From Methanohalobium evestigatum Z-7303 (GTDB taxonomy: Archaea > Halobacteriota > Methanosarcinia > Methanosarcinales > Methanosarcinaceae): a stretch of DNA of 64,000 nt. The DNA lies in assembly GCF_000196655.1 (NCBI RefSeq), contig NC_014253.1, positions 1,691,423 through 1,755,422 of the forward strand. The letters run 5' to 3'. The position numbers and the translations under genes were made by a program. The notes under the pieces were generated by a model, which saw nothing but the letters and a program-made list of their open reading frames with translations, ran no database searches and was not told the DNA's origin. Positions 17,542 through 28,157 of this stretch are shown here, one piece after another (positions within the stretch are counted from its first letter, which is position 1; every line of letters starts with the position of its first letter).

Positions 17542-19167
17542 TTACCTTTTTGGAACTATTTCATCTATCCTTAAGATATTAGTAGCTGTTTCTGTTGCAG
17601 AAATTATAGCCAGTTTTTTAATAGTAACTGAATCATATAACGGTGGATTGTTGTTAACAACCTGACCTGACACATCGATTCTTGAATCAATACCCTTATT
17701 GTAATAAGAATTCATATCTGCAATAGAATCTATTGGGTTCATGCCCATATTGAATGCAAGTATTCTGGGAATCTGTTCCAGTGCTTTTGCATATTCCATC
17801 ACTGCAAGCTGTTCTTTACCATCAATTGTTGATGCATATAGTTTAAGCATTTGTGAAAGTCCAAATTCTATACCCCCTCCTCCAGCAACAACTAATCCAT
17901 TTTTGAGAATAAATGCAGCATTATTCAGTGCATCATCTGCTGCTTCCTCCACTTTTTCAAGATTATATTTAACAGGTTCCCAGATAATAATAGTTGTTAT
18001 CATTTTACTGTTTACTGTTACATATACCAGATGTTCACCGTTTTCCTTTTTAACCTCTATTTTATCGGCATATCCAATTGATTTTGTTAAATCATCTTTT
18101 ATAGATGATATTCCAGCGTCTGTTGCTCTGGAGAGTTTCTCAATATCATTTACCTTCATCTTCTTGAACATCAATATATTATTTTTAGTAAGTAAAAACT
18201 CTATATATGGGTCAACCTCACCCTCACAAAAAACCAAATCAGCACCTGTTTCAAGGATTTTATCAGCATAATTTTTCAAAATAGTCTTGCGACATTCTTC
18301 AAACTGGTAAGCCGTTCCAAATGAATCCATATTTATATTATGTTGCGGATTTAGATATTCACTATCCACTTTAAGGTCATGATTTAATATTAAAACGTTA
18401 GGAGATTCAATATAATCAGGCATTTCAAATCTTGCAGGTTTCTCGTCCAGAATAACTCCATTTAAAGAAACAATTCCAGAAGCTCCTGTCTTTTTAATTA
18501 TTCTTACGTTATCGTTTAAATCCAAATCTGTATTTTCTGACATAGCATTTAATCGTTTGATGGAATCAATCATGATTTTTGCAAGTCTTTCAGCCTGATG
18601 GGTTTCTATACCTTTACTTGAGGCTGCAGCAAAAACCGCAGAATAAGTATCTTCCTGTGATTTAACTGATTTAGTTTCAAATTGAAGGATTTCGTAAGAT
18701 TTGTTAAGTGCTTTCTGGTAACCATCTATTATAATAGTTGGATGGATACCTCTATTTATGAGTGGAATCGCCCTGTTAACCAATGTAGCCGCCAGAAGAA
18801 CCGCTGTTTTGGTACCGTCTCCGCAGGTTTTATCCATAGAACCTGCAAGGTCTTTTAAGGATGTTACCACAGGGTGCAGTATGTCGGTTTCTTCAAGTAT
18901 GGTTTTCCCATCATTGGTTAGATAAATATCGTTGACTGGATTAAGTATAATTTTATTGAAACCTCTGGGTCCAAATGATGAACTCAACAAATCTATTATC
19001 TTACTGCATACACTATCCAGATGGTTTATAAATTCCTGTCCTCCCACTACATTTTCAATCCCCACCTTTTCACGTGCCTGCTCTACTAACCCTTCTAAAC
19101 TGTCTGAACTTATATTTGAATCAGTTTGGCACCTGTGTACCGGTTTTGATACTGTGTTTTCCATCAT
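17542..19167 (-). CDS. divergent group II chaperonin (thermosome-like Hsp60)
   Basis: 541 residues from the ATG at 19167, which has AGGTGA 5 nt upstream. Nucleotide-binding signatures of thermosome/CCT subunits are present: GPRGFNKII, LTNDGKTIL, CGDGTKTAVLLA (one T of GDGTTT replaced by K), the DDAL hydrolysis Asp in EEAADDALNN, and GGGGIEFG for GGGAxE. The end (ATNILRIDEIV) matches the family. It also has an N-terminal extension of about 30-40 residues. It overlaps the HyuA-like gene by 47 nt and is in the methyltransferase operon, not a stress operon. It is probably a specialised folding factor. Unusual Hsp60 forms are known from Methanosarcina acetivorans. Confidence 0.88.
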   Translation of the reverse strand: MMENTVSKPVHRCQTDSNISSDSLEGLVEQAREKVGIENVVGGQEFINHLDSVCSKIIDLLSSSFGPRGFNKIILNPVNDIYLTNDGKTILEETDILHPVVTSLKDLAGSMDKTCGDGTKTAVLLAATLVNRAIPLINRGIHPTIIIDGYQKALNKSYEILQFETKSVKSQEDTYSAVFAAASSKGIETHQAERLAKIMIDSIKRLNAMSENTDLDLNDNVRIIKKTGASGIVSLNGVILDEKPARFEMPDYIESPNVLILNHDLKVDSEYLNPQHNINMDSFGTAYQFEECRKTILKNYADKILETGADLVFCEGEVDPYIEFLLTKNNILMFKKMKVNDIEKLSRATDAGISSIKDDLTKSIGYADKIEVKKENGEHLVYVTVNSKMITTIIIWEPVKYNLEKVEEAADDALNNAAFILKNGLVVAGGGGIEFGLSQMLKLYASTIDGKEQLAVMEYAKALEQIPRILAFNMGMNPIDSIADMNSYYNKGIDSRIDVSGQVVNNNPPLYDSVTIKKLAIISATETATNILRIDEIVPKR

Positions 19168-21112
19168 AATTTTCACCTGTCACTTTATTAATAGGTTTAC
19201 CGACACCAATACCCACCAGTTTTGTTTCTATCGGAGACCCCATACCTTTGCCGATTTCATTTTCATCAAGATTGAACTGGATACTGTCTTCATCCAGATC
19301 ATAGCTTTTCATATACCCAAAAACTATTCTTTTAGTAAGGTCAAGGGCATAATCTTTGGCTTTTTCATAGCTTTCAAAAATTTCTCTACCGGATTCAGAA
19401 AATACCACATATTTACTGCTTCCCAGTTTATAGGGCTTTATAGACGTTTCTGTCCTATAGATAACATTCCCCATTAGTGCACCTACCGCATTTCCTACCT
19501 CAGAATAATCGGGAGCTATAAACTCTGCTTCCAGAAAAGTGTTCAAATCATTCAAGTAGGCTTTAACAGGTGCACCTATCAACACAATAGGCAGGTTCAT
19601 TTTCATATTAAGATATGAGGATTTGTTCAATAATTTGCCTATATCAGATTTTTCGACATCATCTGCAAAAAAGGATACAAGATTTAGTGAAATTGTCCTT
19701 ATAACTTCCTCTTTTATATAGGAACTGAATGAACCTGGATTCATATTAATATGGTATGAAAGTAATTCAGCACCGATTTTAGAGGCTTTTGCATTCCATT
19801 TGGTGTAATCATTAAGAACATGGAGTGCATCAGTCGGAGTGAAACCTATTTGGCTGATATATTTGTTCTGTTCCAGTAACCTTAATATATTCGAAAACAT
19901 CAAAGGATGATCTTGAGACCTATTTGCTATATCAGAAATTGATAAAGGTTCATCGGATTCTGTTATTATATCAAATATTTTTTCCTCATAGCTTCCCAAC
20001 TCATGAGTGGTTTTTACTGAACCATTGTTCATGAAAAACGTGGTTGGCTGTATAACATCATCCATGATTCGTTTGGATATCTTTTTTTTATTGGTTTCCA
20101 ATTTGTCTGTTATCTGGGGATATTCAGATGCCGCCTGACACAAAGGAACAACCCTTTTTGGACCGGTATATGCCTTTTTCTGAATCCATACATGGCTATC
20201 CCCACCCATTGCGGATGTATCCATATTTATGGCTTTAACCATCGTCTTCCAGCCACCCACCACAGCCCCTGTTTCACTTATCTCTGGTATCCCATCTGAC
20301 ATGAAGGAAACGTCAGTACTCGTACCCCCAACATCAATGGTTGCACAGGTATCAAGATTTGTGAGATGTGAAGCTCCTACAAGACTTGCAGCCGGACCAG
20401 AAAAAATCGTTTCAACCGGTTTCTTCAAAGCTTCTTCTATTTTTATAAGGGAACCATCACATTTCATCATCATTAATGTTGCAGTGATGTTTTTTTCGTC
20501 CATAACAGAATGTATTGATTTTATAAACTGATTAGTTTCAGGGATTAACTGGGCATTTAGTAAAGCCGTTACAGACCTTTCATATGCTCCAAGATCCTGG
20601 GACAGTTCATGTCCACAAACAACAGGAAGTTCTGTAAGATTTTGAACCAATTTTTTTACACGCAGTTCATGTTCAGGATTTCTCACTCCAAAATAGGAAG
20701 ATATTGCAAATGAGGACACTTTTGATTTGTTGGCAAGGATAAATTCTTTAAGTGTATCAAGGTCATTTAGTGGTTCGATTTCATCTCCGTTTGCGTCATG
20801 TCCACCACTAACAGATATTACTACATCTGTAGATAATTTTTTATGTATGGAATAACCAATAAGTATTAAACCTGCTTGTCTGCCTTTTCTTTCAAGAATG
20901 GAATTTGTTGCAAGTGTAGTGGACACTGATACAAACTTTACATCTTCCAAATACTTACTGTTTAAACCATTTAGTGCATTTTTAATACCGGTTATCAGTT
21001 CAGGATACGTAGTCAGAGATTTGTTTGTATCCATTACAGTACCAGTTGATATATCCATGATTATAGTGTCTGTATAAGTCCCACCCGTGTCAACGCCCAG
21101 TCCAAAATTCAT
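19121..21112 (-). CDS. HyuA-like hydantoinase/oxoprolinase-family ATPase
   Basis: 663 residues. The N terminus GVDTGGTYTDTIIM is the phosphate-1 motif of the hydantoinase A family. DLGAYERSVTALLNAQL and DVGGTSTDVSFM are further family blocks. TPTDALHVLNDYTKW marks the central domain, preceded by a small helix-turn-helix-like stretch. The family couples ATP hydrolysis to ring opening or activates small molecules, but the activity of methanogen members beside methyltransferases is unknown. It starts 58 nt after the fused methyltransferase stop, with AAGGTG upstream, and overlaps the chaperonin start. A role in activating or repairing the corrinoid protein is inference, based on the related ASKHA fold of the RamA ATPase domain. 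Confidence 0.87.
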   Translation of the reverse strand: MNFGLGVDTGGTYTDTIIMDISTGTVMDTNKSLTTYPELITGIKNALNGLNSKYLEDVKFVSVSTTLATNSILERKGRQAGLILIGYSIHKKLSTDVVISVSGGHDANGDEIEPLNDLDTLKEFILANKSKVSSFAISSYFGVRNPEHELRVKKLVQNLTELPVVCGHELSQDLGAYERSVTALLNAQLIPETNQFIKSIHSVMDEKNITATLMMMKCDGSLIKIEEALKKPVETIFSGPAASLVGASHLTNLDTCATIDVGGTSTDVSFMSDGIPEISETGAVVGGWKTMVKAINMDTSAMGGDSHVWIQKKAYTGPKRVVPLCQAASEYPQITDKLETNKKKISKRIMDDVIQPTTFFMNNGSVKTTHELGSYEEKIFDIITESDEPLSISDIANRSQDHPLMFSNILRLLEQNKYISQIGFTPTDALHVLNDYTKWNAKASKIGAELLSYHINMNPGSFSSYIKEEVIRTISLNLVSFFADDVEKSDIGKLLNKSSYLNMKMNLPIVLIGAPVKAYLNDLNTFLEAEFIAPDYSEVGNAVGALMGNVIYRTETSIKPYKLGSSKYVVFSESGREIFESYEKAKDYALDLTKRIVFGYMKSYDLDEDSIQFNLDENEIGKGMGSPIETKLVGIGVGKPINKVTGENYDGKHSIKTGTQVPN

Positions 21113-21170: not shown

Positions 21171-23093
21171 TCACCCCATTGTCTTTTTCTGAAGCCCTGG
21201 ACCTTTTTCTTTAACAAGGTCTATCATTTCTTTGACACCTGTCAGTGAACCACCCGGTGGTATCTCACAACCTGTGGACACAACATACTTTGACTGCAAA
21301 CCATTTTCATTCAATGTGTTAAGTGCCCCAGTCAGTACATTATCAGTGTCGCTTTTTATCTTGTCAATCGTCTCAGAAGAATTATCCATGAACTGTATAG
21401 GATCCACTTCACCCATCATACAACATTCATGACCATATTTTGGTATAAGATCTGAATAGTTCTTTGAACCCTGTTCTCTTTCATTGGGATAGTATGCATA
21501 ACTGAAGAGGTCTGTTCCGAATTTACTAATCTGGGTGTCATAATGGACTGAATCAGCGCAGCTGTGAATCATGTACGGCTGGTCATATTTTTTAAACAAT
21601 GGTACATGTTTATCCACAATAAATTTACCATCGAATTTCCAGTAGTCATCTTCAGACATTATTTTGTTGTTAGACCAGAGATTATCTATACATAATGCAT
21701 CACATGCATCCTCTTCAAAGAATTTCTCTGTGACCAAATTGACATAATCAGCACATTTATCTACTGCATCACGTACGACCTCTGGATTTGTTTTCATATC
21801 CATCATTACTCTGTCTGCACCCATTAACTGGGTCAGGGTCAAAAGTGGACCTTCATGGAAACCTACAACCGGTTTTCCGATTTCATGCAGTTTCTCTTTT
21901 GCAAGTTTAGTTGCCTGTACAAGTTCGTAAGCACGTGTTCCTTCTTTTACTTCTGGAACCTCTATTTCCTCATAATCTTCAAGATGTCCTTTAGAGGATG
22001 GTGTATCTTCTTCAGGATATGTTATTTCACAACCAAGGTCACCAGCTGTAATCGATAGGTCTATCAGACCTACAAACATATCATAATCCAGATACTTGGC
22101 ACCTGCATAGGCAGACTGTGCAAACATTTCAGGATCGATTGCGTACTGTTTATATGTTGTTGGTACAAACTTTCTTGTTACACCACATGCCAGTGGATAA
22201 ACTGGGAGACGGTCTACCTTTTTATCTGCAAGTGAACTGGTAACTCTTTCTATAGATGTCATCTCCTCTTTTCCTTTCGTACCTACACTTTCAACTTCAT
22301 CTATTATTTCTTTGGCAGTTTCCCTTCCTATATCCACTTCTTCAGAAACCGTCTTCTTTGCAAGTTCTTCTCTGTATTTTACCTTGCTTGTGCTGATTTT
22401 CTCTTCACTCCATCTGCGTTCAGCAGGTTCGAGTTCTTTCACAGCATCTTTTAACCAGTCTGCTGCTGAATCTGCATCAGGTAATGTAGCATCTGCACCT
22501 ATCTCATTAGCATAATCTTCAGATACAGGTGCACCCCCTACCATGACAATTACAGAATCTCTCAATCCCTCTTCTTTGAGCTTATCAATAACAGTTTCCA
22601 TACCACCCATAGTGGTAGTCATCAGAGCACTCATTGATATGGCATCAGCTTTATTCTCTTTAGCCTTTTCAACAAATTCATCAAGTTGAACATCATTTCC
22701 CAGATCAATCGCATTGAATCCGGATGCAGTCAGCATGGTTTTTACAAGGTTTTTACCGATGTCATGGACATCTCCCTGGACTGTTCCGATTATAACTATG
22801 GCTTGTTTTGATGCTTCATCGGTTTTTATATAGGGTGTAAGTTCTTTCATCCCCGCATACATGGCGTTTGAAGCTACCAGAAGATGCGGTACAAATACTT
22901 CTCCGTTCTCATATTTGTCACTCATGATAGACATACCCTTTGCCAGCCCATCGACAATTGCTTCATAGGGATCCACCACACCCCCATTTTCAATCACTTT
23001 TGTTGCCAGTTCTTTAGCAGAATCTTGGTCACCCTGAATAACTGCATTGGTTAATCCGTTTAAAATATCTTCTTTTGATTTGTTTTCTGTCAT
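21171..23093 (-). CDS. fused corrinoid protein / methyltransferase (MtsD/MtsF/MtsH type)
   Basis: 640 residues. Residues 1-90 are the helical corrinoid cap domain. Residues 95-225 are the B12-binding Rossmann domain with D108-x-H110-x-x-G113 (GDVHDIGKN), H110 being the cobalt ligand. A linker of about 60 residues follows. From about 290 to the end is a UroD-fold MtaA/MtbA-like methyltransferase with zinc ligands H510, C512 (MIHSCAD) and C609 (STGCEIPPGG). Such fusions transfer methyl groups from methyl sulfides to coenzyme M or tetrahydrosarcinapterin in Methanosarcina. No pyrrolysine-type substrate methyltransferase is nearby. The exact substrate (dimethyl sulfide, methanethiol, methylmercaptopropionate or other) is not determinable. 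The start has AGGAAG upstream. It is the first gene of the operon. Confidence 0.9.
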   Translation of the reverse strand: MTENKSKEDILNGLTNAVIQGDQDSAKELATKVIENGGVVDPYEAIVDGLAKGMSIMSDKYENGEVFVPHLLVASNAMYAGMKELTPYIKTDEASKQAIVIIGTVQGDVHDIGKNLVKTMLTASGFNAIDLGNDVQLDEFVEKAKENKADAISMSALMTTTMGGMETVIDKLKEEGLRDSVIVMVGGAPVSEDYANEIGADATLPDADSAADWLKDAVKELEPAERRWSEEKISTSKVKYREELAKKTVSEEVDIGRETAKEIIDEVESVGTKGKEEMTSIERVTSSLADKKVDRLPVYPLACGVTRKFVPTTYKQYAIDPEMFAQSAYAGAKYLDYDMFVGLIDLSITAGDLGCEITYPEEDTPSSKGHLEDYEEIEVPEVKEGTRAYELVQATKLAKEKLHEIGKPVVGFHEGPLLTLTQLMGADRVMMDMKTNPEVVRDAVDKCADYVNLVTEKFFEEDACDALCIDNLWSNNKIMSEDDYWKFDGKFIVDKHVPLFKKYDQPYMIHSCADSVHYDTQISKFGTDLFSYAYYPNEREQGSKNYSDLIPKYGHECCMMGEVDPIQFMDNSSETIDKIKSDTDNVLTGALNTLNENGLQSKYVVSTGCEIPPGGSLTGVKEMIDLVKEKGPGLQKKTMG

Positions 23094-23354: not shown

Positions 23355-24131
23355 TTACTTTTCTGCTTTGTTTTTATAGTACTCAAACAGTTCCTTTGCC
23401 CATTGTAACGCACATGAGTCAAAACTAATCAGCTTCTTGTGGTCAAATACACCTTCTTCATTAAAAAGTGAAACCAACATCATGTCATCGGTTATAACTA
23501 AGGTAGCTGGTTTTATTATATTGTCGTCACATATGTACAAATATCCGTTGTCAGAACCGGATATAATATGATGTTCTTCTGAAAATTCATCTTTTAACCG
23601 CTCGAAAACTGATTTTGTGAGGATGAGTTCAAAACTGACACCCCTTTTAACCAGATCTGTGAATGTAGTTGGTAATTCTGGGCAGAAAAACGAATAAAAT
23701 GTCATAACATACTGTGTTGATTTTAAACTTTCTACGAGTTCATTTGGAGGCTCAAATAAATGGCTTAAGTCCGGTTCTATCAATCTGCTATGACCTATTT
23801 CTTCAAATCTATCAAGAAGGTTTGAAGGGATTGCTCTTAAATCCCGGGTTTCCCAGTAATGTTTATTTTCACCATAGACATTTAATGTATCCAATAATGG
23901 CTTCATTTTTTTTACTATAACATTTCCTATGGTAGTCAATTCATAAACATCGGCATTATGAGTAACCAATCCCTGATCCATGAGTATTTTCATTTGTGTC
24001 ATTATTGCACTGGTATTGGTTGCAAGTTCATCTTTAATATCATCTATATTCTTGGGTCCATCTAATAAATACATCAAAATATTTTTTCTTTTATCAGACA
24101 GAAACAATGTACCCAATAATGCTGCTTTCAT
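23355..24131 (-). CDS. Msr-type methyltransferase-specific transcription regulator (wHTH-FilR1)
   Basis: 258 residues from the ATG at 24131, with GAGTGA 5 nt upstream (an in-frame GTG lies 9 nt earlier). The N-terminal 70 residues are a winged helix (LSDKRKNILMYLLDGPKN, ATNTSAIMTQMKIL). The C-terminal half is the methanogen-specific DUF1724/FilR1 domain (ETRDLRAIPSNLL, ITDDMMLVSLF). Msr regulators in Methanosarcina acetivorans control the fused methyl sulfide methyltransferase genes they sit beside, which is the arrangement here. It follows the sensor kinase gene by about 16 nt, so kinase and regulator are co-expressed. Confidence 0.88.
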   Translation of the reverse strand: MKAALLGTLFLSDKRKNILMYLLDGPKNIDDIKDELATNTSAIMTQMKILMDQGLVTHNADVYELTTIGNVIVKKMKPLLDTLNVYGENKHYWETRDLRAIPSNLLDRFEEIGHSRLIEPDLSHLFEPPNELVESLKSTQYVMTFYSFFCPELPTTFTDLVKRGVSFELILTKSVFERLKDEFSEEHHIISGSDNGYLYICDDNIIKPATLVITDDMMLVSLFNEEGVFDHKKLISFDSCALQWAKELFEYYKNKAEK

Positions 24132-24147
24132 TTTATTCACTCGCCAA

Positions 24148-26742
24148 TTATTGAACTGAATATCTACCCTTTAAAGGTAAGACTATAGTTACAGTGGTCC
24201 CTATTTCCTCTTTACTATCTACCGAAATTTGACCCCCGTGTGCATTTACAATTTTTTTACATACATAAAGGCTTGACCCCGATTTTTCCAAACCATGAGT
24301 TAATGTATCTTCAGAATGACTAAACCCCTTGAAAAGTGTAGGAACCAAATCTTTCGGGATTCCTTCACCATTGTCATTTACTTTTATATATAAGTTATTT
24401 TCAGATTTAAAAGCACTTATATTAATATTTCCTCCCCTTGGTGTATACTTTAAAGAATTGTCTATTAAATAGGTAAACATGTCCGTTAACTTATTTTTAT
24501 CACCATAAATCTCCGGCAAATTTTCTGGTATATCAATATTTAAGTCAATATCTTTTTCATCAATTGAGAGGGCTAAATTCAGATAGGCACTGTTTATAGG
24601 CTCTTTGATATTTAGCAAAGAAAAGGTATAATCAAGTTTACCAGATTCTTCCATGCTCATATACAGAAGAGAACCTATTAAACTGTTTATCTGTTCTGAA
24701 CTACGTATAATCGTATTGATTGCAATGTCCCTTTGTTCATTGATTGTTTCCAGTGTTTCTCTATCCAACAATTCTTTATAATCAGTTGATGTTGGTTTTC
24801 CGTTTAAAATTTCATTTTTCATCTTTTCAAGTGATTTGAGTTCCGAATTGATATTGGCAATTTCATCCAAATATTTTTTCAATGCTTCTTCGAATTGTTT
24901 TCTCTGAATCAGTCTCCACATTCCCTGCATCAGCAATGTTAACTGGCGAACATCAGACTCATCATATTCTTGCTCTTTATTACCCACTCCTGCAACCAAA
25001 ACAATGTGTTCTCCGTCAAAAATCGGGACATTCATGTGCCTTGTCAATTCTACATGTCCCCCGGGATAACCCTTTTTAAGAGAACTTGGCTCTGTATAGT
25101 TATTGGTAATAATTGGTTTTCGCTGTCTTACAGCCTCCCCCCATAAACCGGTTGTTTTTACAGGATATACAAATGGTTTGTTTTCTACTTTACATTCCTT
25201 CATTGCACCCTCTGACCACGAGTGCATTATAAGTATTGATTCGTCGTAGTTTAGGAAAGCAAGGTAACCAAGTTTACTATTAGTTAACCTTACTGCTTCT
25301 TCACGGGCAAAATCCGTAATTTCCTGCAGTGATGCTCCTGCCATATAATTCAATTTTAAAAGTGTTTCAAGGCGTGACTCCTCAAGCTGTAAGGTTTTCT
25401 CTGCTTTTTTACGCTCAGTTATGTCGATAATTATACCCTGAAGATATTTCACAGCACCCTTTTGGTTACGTATAATCAATGATTTCTCGGTCACCCAGCG
25501 TGTTTCTCCTGTTTTGGTAAGAATCCTGTAATCAGAGGTGAAATAGGAATTTTTGTTTTGTTTTTCATACACTGAAAAATCCGATTTTAATTTATCAACA
25601 TCATCCGGGTGGACGATATCTGCATATGTCAGCTTTCCTGATAAAAACTCGTCTGATTTATATCCAAAATATGTGATGTTTTCAGATACATATTCCACAG
25701 GCCAATCATTTATTGCTTTCCACAAAAACGCTATTACAGGGCTGGTTTCGTAGATTTTTTCTATTTTATGTTTTGCTTCCAGTGTATCACAGATTGACAC
25801 GTCGCTGATTTTTCTTTTTGTTGATGTTGCCTCTTCAACCGTACCAAGTATACCCTGATAATTTCCTGCTTCATTAAAAAGTGGAATTAATACCCCATTA
25901 TGATAACTCATTTTACCATCAGGAGTCAAAAAAGCAAGGGCATTATAAGTCACAGGTTCTCGGGATTTTTTTGTGTGTAAATACAACTCTTCAAGGCGAG
26001 AATCGCCAACAGGTCTCTGTTCAGCAATATAATCCATAAAACTTGTTCCAAGTATCTCCTCTCTTGGAACACCAAAAATTGATTCCATGGTATTGTTAAA
26101 AAAAACTACATTGTCAGAACTATCTACAACCCATACTCCCAACCAGATGCTGTCAAGTATTTTTTCATAAAAGGTATTGTTTAATCTGGAGATTGTATTG
26201 TTATCTGTTTTTGATTTTTCCTCAAGAAACTTCCATTCACCATCTTTTTTCAGTAATGTTCTATCATGGCTGGAAATCAAATCAAGTGTATTACTTTGTG
26301 AACATTTAGTAAGGTCGTAGCTACACAACGACACCATATTTCTATTTTTTATTATTTCATCCAATAGACTTTCATAATTGAGATAATAGGATGGATAATT
26401 CTCAAAAACAGGAGTAAGGTTTTCTATCATCCACAACCCATTGAACCCATTATCTATAGCATTAAGATATTTTTGTTTCCAGAAATTTAAAACGCCTGTA
26501 AAATCAGAAAAACCGAGCTGGTTTTCATGTATTATTTCAAATTTATCGGATTCAATATAAAAATCTACATCAAACCCGGTGTTTTTTAGTGTATTCTTTG
26601 CCCTTTCAACAGTAACAAAATCATAATCGGAAATAACCCAGATACAATACTGGTTGTTTTCAACTCCAGATTTAAAAAAAGATGGTAATAATTCCATCAA
26701 TTCATCAAGGCTGTTATAAAATAGATTTCCATGTGAACCCAA
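24148..26742 (-). CDS. MEDS-PAS-PAS-GAF sensor kinase without visible phosphoacceptor His
   Basis: 864 residues. Residues 1 to about 165 form a MEDS (DcmR-type) sensory domain (GSHGNLFYNSLDEL). PAS domains follow at about 185-310 and 325-440, ending in ITERKKAEK. A GAF domain lies at about 455-610 and a coiled linker at 620-700. The HATPase domain has IDNSLKYTPRGG, NDNGEGIP and GSSLYVCKKIV. The HisKA-like helix pair keeps LEKMKNEIL and TIIRSSEQIN, but the SHELRTP box between them is missing. Similar methyltransferase-associated sensor kinases (MsmS type) occur in M. acetivorans. The start is uncertain: TTG at 26742 lacks a ribosome site, and the frame stays open 60 nt upstream with no ATG. 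The regulator gene follows directly. Confidence 0.85.
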   Translation of the reverse strand: MGSHGNLFYNSLDELMELLPSFFKSGVENNQYCIWVISDYDFVTVERAKNTLKNTGFDVDFYIESDKFEIIHENQLGFSDFTGVLNFWKQKYLNAIDNGFNGLWMIENLTPVFENYPSYYLNYESLLDEIIKNRNMVSLCSYDLTKCSQSNTLDLISSHDRTLLKKDGEWKFLEEKSKTDNNTISRLNNTFYEKILDSIWLGVWVVDSSDNVVFFNNTMESIFGVPREEILGTSFMDYIAEQRPVGDSRLEELYLHTKKSREPVTYNALAFLTPDGKMSYHNGVLIPLFNEAGNYQGILGTVEEATSTKRKISDVSICDTLEAKHKIEKIYETSPVIAFLWKAINDWPVEYVSENITYFGYKSDEFLSGKLTYADIVHPDDVDKLKSDFSVYEKQNKNSYFTSDYRILTKTGETRWVTEKSLIIRNQKGAVKYLQGIIIDITERKKAEKTLQLEESRLETLLKLNYMAGASLQEITDFAREEAVRLTNSKLGYLAFLNYDESILIMHSWSEGAMKECKVENKPFVYPVKTTGLWGEAVRQRKPIITNNYTEPSSLKKGYPGGHVELTRHMNVPIFDGEHIVLVAGVGNKEQEYDESDVRQLTLLMQGMWRLIQRKQFEEALKKYLDEIANINSELKSLEKMKNEILNGKPTSTDYKELLDRETLETINEQRDIAINTIIRSSEQINSLIGSLLYMSMEESGKLDYTFSLLNIKEPINSAYLNLALSIDEKDIDLNIDIPENLPEIYGDKNKLTDMFTYLIDNSLKYTPRGGNINISAFKSENNLYIKVNDNGEGIPKDLVPTLFKGFSHSEDTLTHGLEKSGSSLYVCKKIVNAHGGQISVDSKEEIGTTVTIVLPLKGRYSVQ

Positions 26743-26863
26743 TGGAAAATCAGATGCAAACTGAACATTTATTAGAGAGTTATTAGAATGAATAAGAAAA
26801 CCCCTATACTTTTATTACAATATATAATTATACCTTGATGTATTTACTTCTTTCCACCAATAT
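26743..26863. other. spacer between kinase start and IS right end
   Basis: AT-rich promoter region for the kinase-regulator operon. ATATAATTATACC at about 26821 is TATA-like. No gene. Confidence 0.3.
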
Positions 26864-26935
26864 GTGAACTACCGCTGAGCTAAAGATTCAGAGGCTTCGG
26901 GAGAAGTTTGATTTATCGGCATGTGTTACCGAAAA
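26864..26935 (-). ncRNA. predicted omega (reRNA) 3' end of element 1
   Basis: In IS605 elements the RNA guiding TnpB overlaps the tnpB 3' end and stops at the right-end tip, with the flank acting as guide. Here the minus strand runs from the tnpB stop through the hairpin at 26872-26894 and ends in TAGTTCAC at the tip. Assignment is by position and by the matching structure in element 2. Confidence 0.45.
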
Positions 26936-28157
26936 ACCTTATTCTCTCAGGGGAGTTCACATCCCCACTATCGGTTATCCCTGCGAGAGAATCACCGATT
27001 ACCTTTCTCAAGATGTTCAATGCTCCATTGATATCGGCATTGATCAGTCTACCTGTAGATGACTGGAAGATTCCTCTTTTAGGTCTTTTACCAAGATACT
27101 TTTTATGTCTTCTGATAGGTTCTAATGCCAGTGCATCGACTTTACTGGTATAAGCTTCATCTACTTCTTGATACTTTAGACCATGGTATTCACATTTGGA
27201 GGCCATTTTCTGTTTAAATCTAGCAAACGGTATCGTCTGGAAGTTCTGGGTGTTCTCTTTACCGATGTTTTGTTCTTGTTTTATTTCTTTCAGCTTTCCA
27301 ATCACGACATTACCTATCCGATTTTCCAGACAGTGTTTAACGACGTGATTGACACACTGGTTCATGAGATCATTTATCTTCCAGAACCTTTTATTAAAGA
27401 ATCTATCCATTTTGATACCATTATCTACATCCTGTTTATCGTAGACTGACTGTAACCTACTCTTCTCCTTGTTCCACCAGCGGTTGTAAGATTTGATAAC
27501 CCTGCCGTCTAATATGAAGGCAGTCCCGCCGGTCGTCACGCAGGTTGCAAAGTTGTCCACTCCAAGGTCTATCGATAGATGGCTATTGTAATCCAGTTCA
27601 GCAATCTCTCCATCTTCATGATATACAAATTCTATCTCGAACCATCTACCCTTATATTTCGGGACGATACTGACCTGATTGATGTATTGACCTATTATGT
27701 TGTCAGGTATCCTGAAATACAGATACTTGGTTCCATAAGTTCTGTAATAATCTAAACCCATAGATAATCTGATTTTATCATCGATAACCTTCAGTTGATC
27801 TTTCTTGAAAGTACATATGAAGTTGCCGTCTTTATCCAGATACTTTAGAAGGGAAACAGGTTTATTGTAATCTCCTTTTCTCTTCTTATCCAGAAGTTTG
27901 AAGAACGATTTCATACTACCGTCTACAGTTTCCATAATATTCTGTGCGACCTGAGATGGTAGTAGTTTATAGTTCTCGTTCTCTTTTACTGTGTGATAAG
28001 CAGTATCTTTATTGAGATATTTACCATTATTGAAGAAGTACTGTCTGATATTATACAATATAAAATTGTACAGGTTCTTGGACAGTTTGGTCAACCTCTT
28101 CAAAGTTTCATAGGTCTGCTTATCAGCACGGAGATGATTCTTCTGGGTCAGATACAT
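26913..28157 (-). CDS. tnpB: TnpB-family RNA-guided nuclease, element 1
   Basis: 414 residues. The RuvC-like catalytic triad is visible as D197 (SIDLGVDN), E291 (GKLKEIKQ) and D375 (NADINGALNI). The N-terminal wedge-like region is present (RADKQTYETLKRLT). The zinc ribbon usual between the second and third RuvC motifs is missing: residues 336-366 (EAYTSKVDALALEPI onward) contain no Cys. That pattern occurs in some archaeal TnpB lineages. The gene appears intact. Without tnpA the element would need help in trans to move. Confidence 0.9.
   Translation of the reverse strand: MYLTQKNHLRADKQTYETLKRLTKLSKNLYNFILYNIRQYFFNNGKYLNKDTAYHTVKENENYKLLPSQVAQNIMETVDGSMKSFFKLLDKKRKGDYNKPVSLLKYLDKDGNFICTFKKDQLKVIDDKIRLSMGLDYYRTYGTKYLYFRIPDNIIGQYINQVSIVPKYKGRWFEIEFVYHEDGEIAELDYNSHLSIDLGVDNFATCVTTGGTAFILDGRVIKSYNRWWNKEKSRLQSVYDKQDVDNGIKMDRFFNKRFWKINDLMNQCVNHVVKHCLENRIGNVVIGKLKEIKQEQNIGKENTQNFQTIPFARFKQKMASKCEYHGLKYQEVDEAYTSKVDALALEPIRRHKKYLGKRPKRGIFQSSTGRLINADINGALNILRKVIGDSLAGITDSGDVNSPERIRFFGNTCR

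Follow-up and report, generated by a model that had tools for sequence, protein, structure and literature searches.

A sensor kinase of the MsmS/RdmS clade without an H-box, encoded next to a receiver-less Msr-type regulator in Methanohalobium evestigatum

Results

Organization of the kinase locus

The window, i.e., the whole stretch of M. evestigatum Z-7303 DNA analysed here (64,000 nucleotides), carries an open reading frame at positions 24148-26742 of the minus strand, which encodes a sensor kinase of 864 aa and has TTG as the first codon. Pfam domains are arranged in the order MEDS-PAS-PAS-GAF-DHp-HATPase, i.e., MEDS (residues 4-159), two PAS domains (191-302 and 351-438), GAF (470-613), a DHp remnant (about 601-703) and HATPase_c (747-858). 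A 92%-identical sibling kinase is present in a MAG named Methanohalobium sp. Comparison with the sibling species gave a dN/dS of 0.20 for the whole gene, with values of 0.16 for DHp, 0.24 for the ATPase (CA) domain and 0.09 for GAF. These values show that purifying selection acts on the gene and that it is not decaying. The 23 codons between a TAA and the TTG start (26743-26811, minus strand) contain no in-frame ATG or GTG. Since they too are conserved in comparison with the sibling (dN/dS 0.16), translation may use a non-standard start codon farther upstream. Next to the kinase gene on its upstream side, an IS605 OrfB/TnpB-type gene lies on the same strand (26913-28157, minus strand; OrfB_IS605 and Cas12f1-like TNB domains).

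Three further genes follow the kinase on the minus strand. The first (23355-24140) begins 7 bp beyond the stop codon of the kinase gene and encodes an Msr-type regulator, which the earlier note had described as lacking a receiver domain. This was borne out, as only an ArsR-like HTH_5 and FilR1_middle were found; with this composition, the pair does not qualify as a two-component system. None of the 11 receivers encoded in the genome is located within 100 kb of the kinase. The second gene (21171-23093) encodes a fused corrinoid protein/methyltransferase resembling MtsD/F/H (B12-binding and URO-D domains) and is the likely target of regulation. The third (19121-21112) is a hydantoinase/oxoprolinase-like gene, a companion of mts in relatives. 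The order kinase, Msr, fused Mts, hydantoinase-like gene is also found at rdmS and in many relatives, and the methyltransferase of the window is 67% identical to that of the rdmS locus.

Absence of the H-box

According to the earlier note, the H-box segment is missing between the two DHp helices, and the alignments agree. The closest intact paralogue in the same genome, L152, reads DEFL-SNVSHELKTPLTSIKG-YSNII where the window kinase reads NEIL-NGKPTSTD-YKELL. The 16-residue H-box segment SNVSHELKTPLTSIKG is thus replaced by 8 residues (NGKPTSTD, residues 647-654; 24781-24804, minus strand), a net difference of -8, and these are flanked by the helix stretches ELKSLEKMKNEIL and YKELLDRETLE. The Pfam HisKA profile gave the same picture: on the window kinase the match starts only at profile position 25 and stays below the cutoff (E=0.024), with positions 1-24 unmatched, compared to positions 1-66 (E=1.5e-18) on L152. 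Among the kinases of this genome aligned over the region, the window kinase is the only one to have lost the H-box.

A histidine elsewhere in the dimerisation helices had been named as the observation that would overturn this reading; residues 601-703 contain none. A replacement acceptor was also sought by conservation. Tyr694, Tyr705, Tyr826 and His835 are conserved, but equally so in kinases with an H-box (H-plus). Conservation restricted to H-box-less (H-less) kinases was seen at two residues, Ser625 (replaced by Leu in the window kinase) and Ser823 (in the lid), and neither is a clear acceptor.

In an AlphaFold2 model of moderate confidence (mean pLDDT 70), two long helices (602-647 and 654-699) are joined by a turn at the former H-box site, the ATPase domain appears normal and the DHp-CA fold is predicted to be retained. 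The best structural matches of the DHp-CA model are DHp-CA pieces of histidine kinases, including DivL (4q20). This match is one reason to consider a reversed flow of information as in DivL, with the kinase sensing whether a stand-alone receiver protein is phosphorylated. Several receivers of REC-only size are encoded in the genome, and DivL works without kinase activity (PMC4211667). Such a role is nevertheless very unlikely, as DivL keeps all histidine kinase motifs save for the His to Tyr change, whereas the window kinase has lost the H-box, to which receivers mainly dock, and has no receiver gene nearby.

The paralogue L152, with 41% identity in DHp-CA, could instead be the other half of a heterodimer in which the window kinase is the sensor and the histidine of the partner is phosphorylated, as with the ChrS pseudokinase and HrrS; such heterodimers of a pseudokinase and a paralogue are known (PMC9491836). 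The DHp helix of the window kinase is 8 residues shorter than that of L152, so the two hairpins should be out of register, and the partner regulator has no receiver. We consider this arrangement unlikely.

A single clade of H-less kinases

Whole genomes of the family and the phylum were searched for homologues, and 60 regions were fetched. A tree was built from 80 DHp-CA sequences (40 H-less and 40 H-plus) after removal of the H-box and lid (G2) columns. All 40 H-less kinases, among them the window kinase, RdmS and MsmS, fell into one clade (97/86), and 99% of bootstrap trees required a single change. The trees of this analysis are unrooted, and the direction of the change, a loss, was inferred from H-plus outgroups.

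In this sample the H-less clade is confined to Methanosarcinaceae. The 23 best matches from 16 genomes of other families all have an H-box; it was confirmed by eye in L214 (SHEIRTP) and checked in L208 and L223. Given that the nearest kinases of other families in the phylum possess the H-box, its loss most simply occurred once, within Methanosarcinaceae. On the sequences compared, this loss is ancestral to the whole clade. The earlier description of a deleted box in the window kinase was correct as to the absence of the segment, but what it described is the ancestral state of the clade rather than an event in this gene. A recent deletion in a MEDS kinase of the same architecture (L157, L163) was considered separately and rejected, because the AU test ruled against a common clade with these kinases (p=0.001).

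Kinases without an H-box were designated MA_type 2, including RdmS and MsmS, in a 2025 survey of M. acetivorans kinases (PMC11784639). The window kinase is a member of this published type. Its input part, MEDS-PAS-PAS-GAF, departs from the alternating PAS/GAF domains of RdmS and MsmS. This does not affect its membership, since it is the H-box region that defines the type, and clade members differ in their input domains.

Decay of the gene, or an artefact of sequencing, could be invoked to explain the loss of two motifs. The probability of either is negligible: the same state is found in 40 kinases and has a single old origin, and the same gap is present in the independent genome of the 92%-identical sibling, which excludes a sequencing error. 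The pseudogene reading was rejected on the dN/dS of 0.20.

Erosion of the ATP-site motifs

The earlier note also held that the N and G motifs are kept. This is true of the N-box (LIDNSLK, residues 759-765, with the catalytic Asn762; 24448-24468, minus strand; LIDNSLKY in the alignment) and of the G1 box (DNGEG, residues 790-794; 24361-24375, minus strand), but not of G2, since the ATP lid (residues 817-825; 24268-24294, minus strand) has LEKSGSSL in place of GTGLGL. Of the features of a classical HisKA histidine kinase, the phosphoacceptor histidine and G2 are absent and N and G1 are present.

The same pattern extends over the clade. G1 is present and G2 is lost in all 40 H-less kinases (the lid of L116, for example, reads GLESSLY), while GxGx[GAS] was matched in 38 of the 40 H-plus kinases, the remaining two having STGLGL and RTGLGL. 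Loss of the N-box Asn, by three separate changes on the tree, affects 12/40 H-less kinases (MsmS and members of the Methanohalophilus/Methanolobus type among them) and 0/40 H-plus kinases.

These observations bear on the suggestion of the RdmS authors that the protein is a working ATP-dependent kinase, phosphorylating Msr or another partner on Ser, Thr, Tyr or His. RdmS binds TNP-ATP and forms ADP in an ADP-Glo assay, and it is not an autokinase (PMC11784639). As RdmS keeps the N-box Asn, its published ATP binding is compatible with motif erosion in the clade; the window protein, too, has an intact N-box Asn and G1. On the other side, G2 is lost throughout, no substrate has been found, and with three independent losses of the Asn, the clade as a whole cannot share such an activity. 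Judging from these motifs, kinase activity is improbable for MsmS and the 11 other members devoid of the Asn, and it is possible for those that keep it, the window protein included. Taken over all members, we regard a working kinase as a doubtful though serious alternative. Autophosphorylation on Tyr, a possibility that the check proposed in the earlier note allowed for, has lost its support, because the laboratory that described it for RdmS has re-examined it and now attributes it to an unspecific, cysteine-dependent phenomenon (PMC11784639).

Coupling of H-less kinases to Msr

The window Msr was used as BLAST query for Msr genes (E<=1e-10). An Msr gene was found at most 3.5 kb from 40/40 H-less kinases compared to 0/19 H-plus relatives, where the 40 are members of one clade and not independent, and some of the H-plus loci end at contig ends. 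In 32 of the 40 H-less loci the Msr gene is the next one downstream, with the same orientation, and in the other 8 it lies 2.3-2.6 kb upstream. In L111 and L117, the upstream Msr gene and the H-less kinase are separated by a RACo/RamA-like corrinoid activator gene; this assignment is based on RACo_C_ter and ferredoxin domains in L117 and on resemblance only in L111. Broken pieces of HATPase/PAS kinases with in-frame stops were also observed (G000:C1:723865-724140 and C2:159083-161140), the former approximately 2 kb from another FilR1_middle gene.

Kinases of the window type form a subclade of seven loci (95/81; L146, L150, L115, L161, L168, L159, L165). The Msr proteins of these loci group in an Msr clade of their own, apart from 25 encoded beside RdmS/MsmS-type kinases. 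As the two subclades hold the same seven adjacent pairs, kinase and Msr have travelled as pairs. The RdmS- and MsmS-associated Msr proteins belong to another clade, and the window Msr is not their direct counterpart. The mts and hydantoinase-like genes of the window operon resemble those of the rdmS locus and the Msr clade differs, as if the regulator pair had been swapped at the same operon.

The haem cysteine

Cys517 in the GAF domain (25192-25194, minus strand) aligns with Cys656 of MsmS (counted from the first Met), reported as the covalent haem ligand of that protein; the residue number fits the MsmS sequence exactly. The cysteine of the last GAF domain is conserved in 39/40 H-less kinases and also occurs in several H-plus relatives, so it is not exclusive to the clade. 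Its presence in the window kinase suggests that a haem/redox or methyl-sulfur signal is likely. Covalent haem has been described in RdmS (PMC7542351), and haem/redox and methyl-sulfur signals have been reviewed (PMC6944256). Phylogeny, synteny and the conserved cysteine thus support the earlier proposal of an MsmS-type kinase signalling to the adjoining Msr.

Several loci contain in-frame TAG codons that probably encode pyrrolysine: in the PAS domain of H-less kinases (L131-L138, L144, L145), in an H-plus kinase (L154) and in the GAF domain of L159, L165 and L168. One PAS-domain site, CT[TAG]EYRVLTKSG, is conserved across three genera and recurs in one H-plus kinase; the window kinase has Ser at this position. 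In L159 and L165, the TAG occupies the Trp position of the MHSW motif in the haem GAF. Pyrrolysine O216 of RdmS is in print (PMC7542351).

Discussion

The earlier note left a choice between phosphorylation of another residue and a signal passed by conformation. Both are possible, and the loss of G2 in all 40 H-less kinases, together with that of the Asn in 12, favours conformation. The best explanation, with a probability of roughly 0.55, is that the window kinase is a haem/redox pseudo-histidine-kinase of the MsmS/RdmS clade, acting on the adjacent receiver-less Msr mainly by conformation. The GAF haem/thiol site (Cys517), with MEDS and PAS, would sense the redox state or methylated sulfur compounds, MEDS being an additional input with no ligand assigned. 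Through the HATPase domain and the shortened DHp hairpin, the signal would then reach the co-expressed Msr as a conformational change, by direct contact, and Msr, once contacted, would set transcription of the downstream methyltransferase gene. ATP, where its binding is kept, would have a structural or modulating role and would not be the phosphate donor to the protein's own histidine.

This pseudokinase reading draws on the H-box and G2 being absent from all 40 members, the loss of the Asn in 12, the Msr gene near every one of them and the low dN/dS. Against it stand the ATP hydrolysis reported for RdmS (PMC11784639), which a pure pseudokinase would not need, the intact N-box and G1 of the window kinase, the 8 of 40 loci in which Msr is upstream and not the next gene, and the moderate quality of the supporting model, the contact between kinase and Msr being one that we infer.

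More tentatively, we suggest a single conversion of a two-component system into a phosphate-free relay, at about the ancestor of methylotrophic Methanosarcinaceae. In this relay, H-box and G2 would have been lost from the kinase, the regulator would have no receiver, and the haem/redox state would be passed by contact. ATP binding would have become dispensable, eroding at least three times, including in MsmS.

As far as the literature at hand shows, the single origin and family-wide spread of H-less kinases, the G2 loss and repeated N-box Asn loss in the clade, Msr coupling as a rule, and the MEDS-fused member in Methanohalobium are new; the kind of kinase itself was already known. How MsmS and RdmS signal has become a question again since the laboratory that had described autophosphorylation of RdmS withdrew it. 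The clade pattern, with G2 lost wherever the H-box is lost, Asn lost repeatedly and Msr found with H-less kinases only, gives this question a testable shape and predicts contact signalling with Msr. In the natural members without the N-box Asn (MsmS and those of L137, L144 and L115), the phosphorylation model should fail outright.

Several known systems can be set beside the window pair. In FilI/FilR1 of Methanosaeta harundinacea, after which the FilR1_middle family found in the window Msr is named, a regulator with an ArsR-related DNA-binding part controls methanogenesis genes; FilI is a true autokinase and FilR1 has a receiver, whereas the window pair is devoid of both phosphorelay sites. 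DivL of Caulobacter likewise has a histidine kinase fold that signals without a phosphohistidine of its own (PMC4211667). There, His is changed to Tyr in an intact helix, the other motifs are kept and the partner is a receiver, while in the window kinase the segment is deleted and G2 is lost.

Among archaeal relatives, L157 and L163 have the full-length domain order of the window kinase (38-39% identity), but with intact H-box (SHEFKTP) and G2 (GTGLGL) and no Msr neighbour. MsmS of M. acetivorans (MA4561, L113; 42% identity in DHp-CA) shares the loss of the H-box and G2, the downstream Msr and the cysteine, and differs in its PAS/GAF architecture and in lacking the N-box Asn (LIDHAIKF). RdmS of Methanosarcina acetivorans (MA0863, L131) is 46% identical in DHp-CA; it has a GAF-PAS-GAF arrangement preceded by a TAG read as pyrrolysine, in contrast to the TAG-free MEDS-PAS-PAS-GAF of the window kinase. 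The two kinases share the same H-box gap, the loss of G2 with N and G1 kept, and the haem-GAF cysteine, and both adjoin genes for Msr, a fused Mts and a hydantoinase-like protein.
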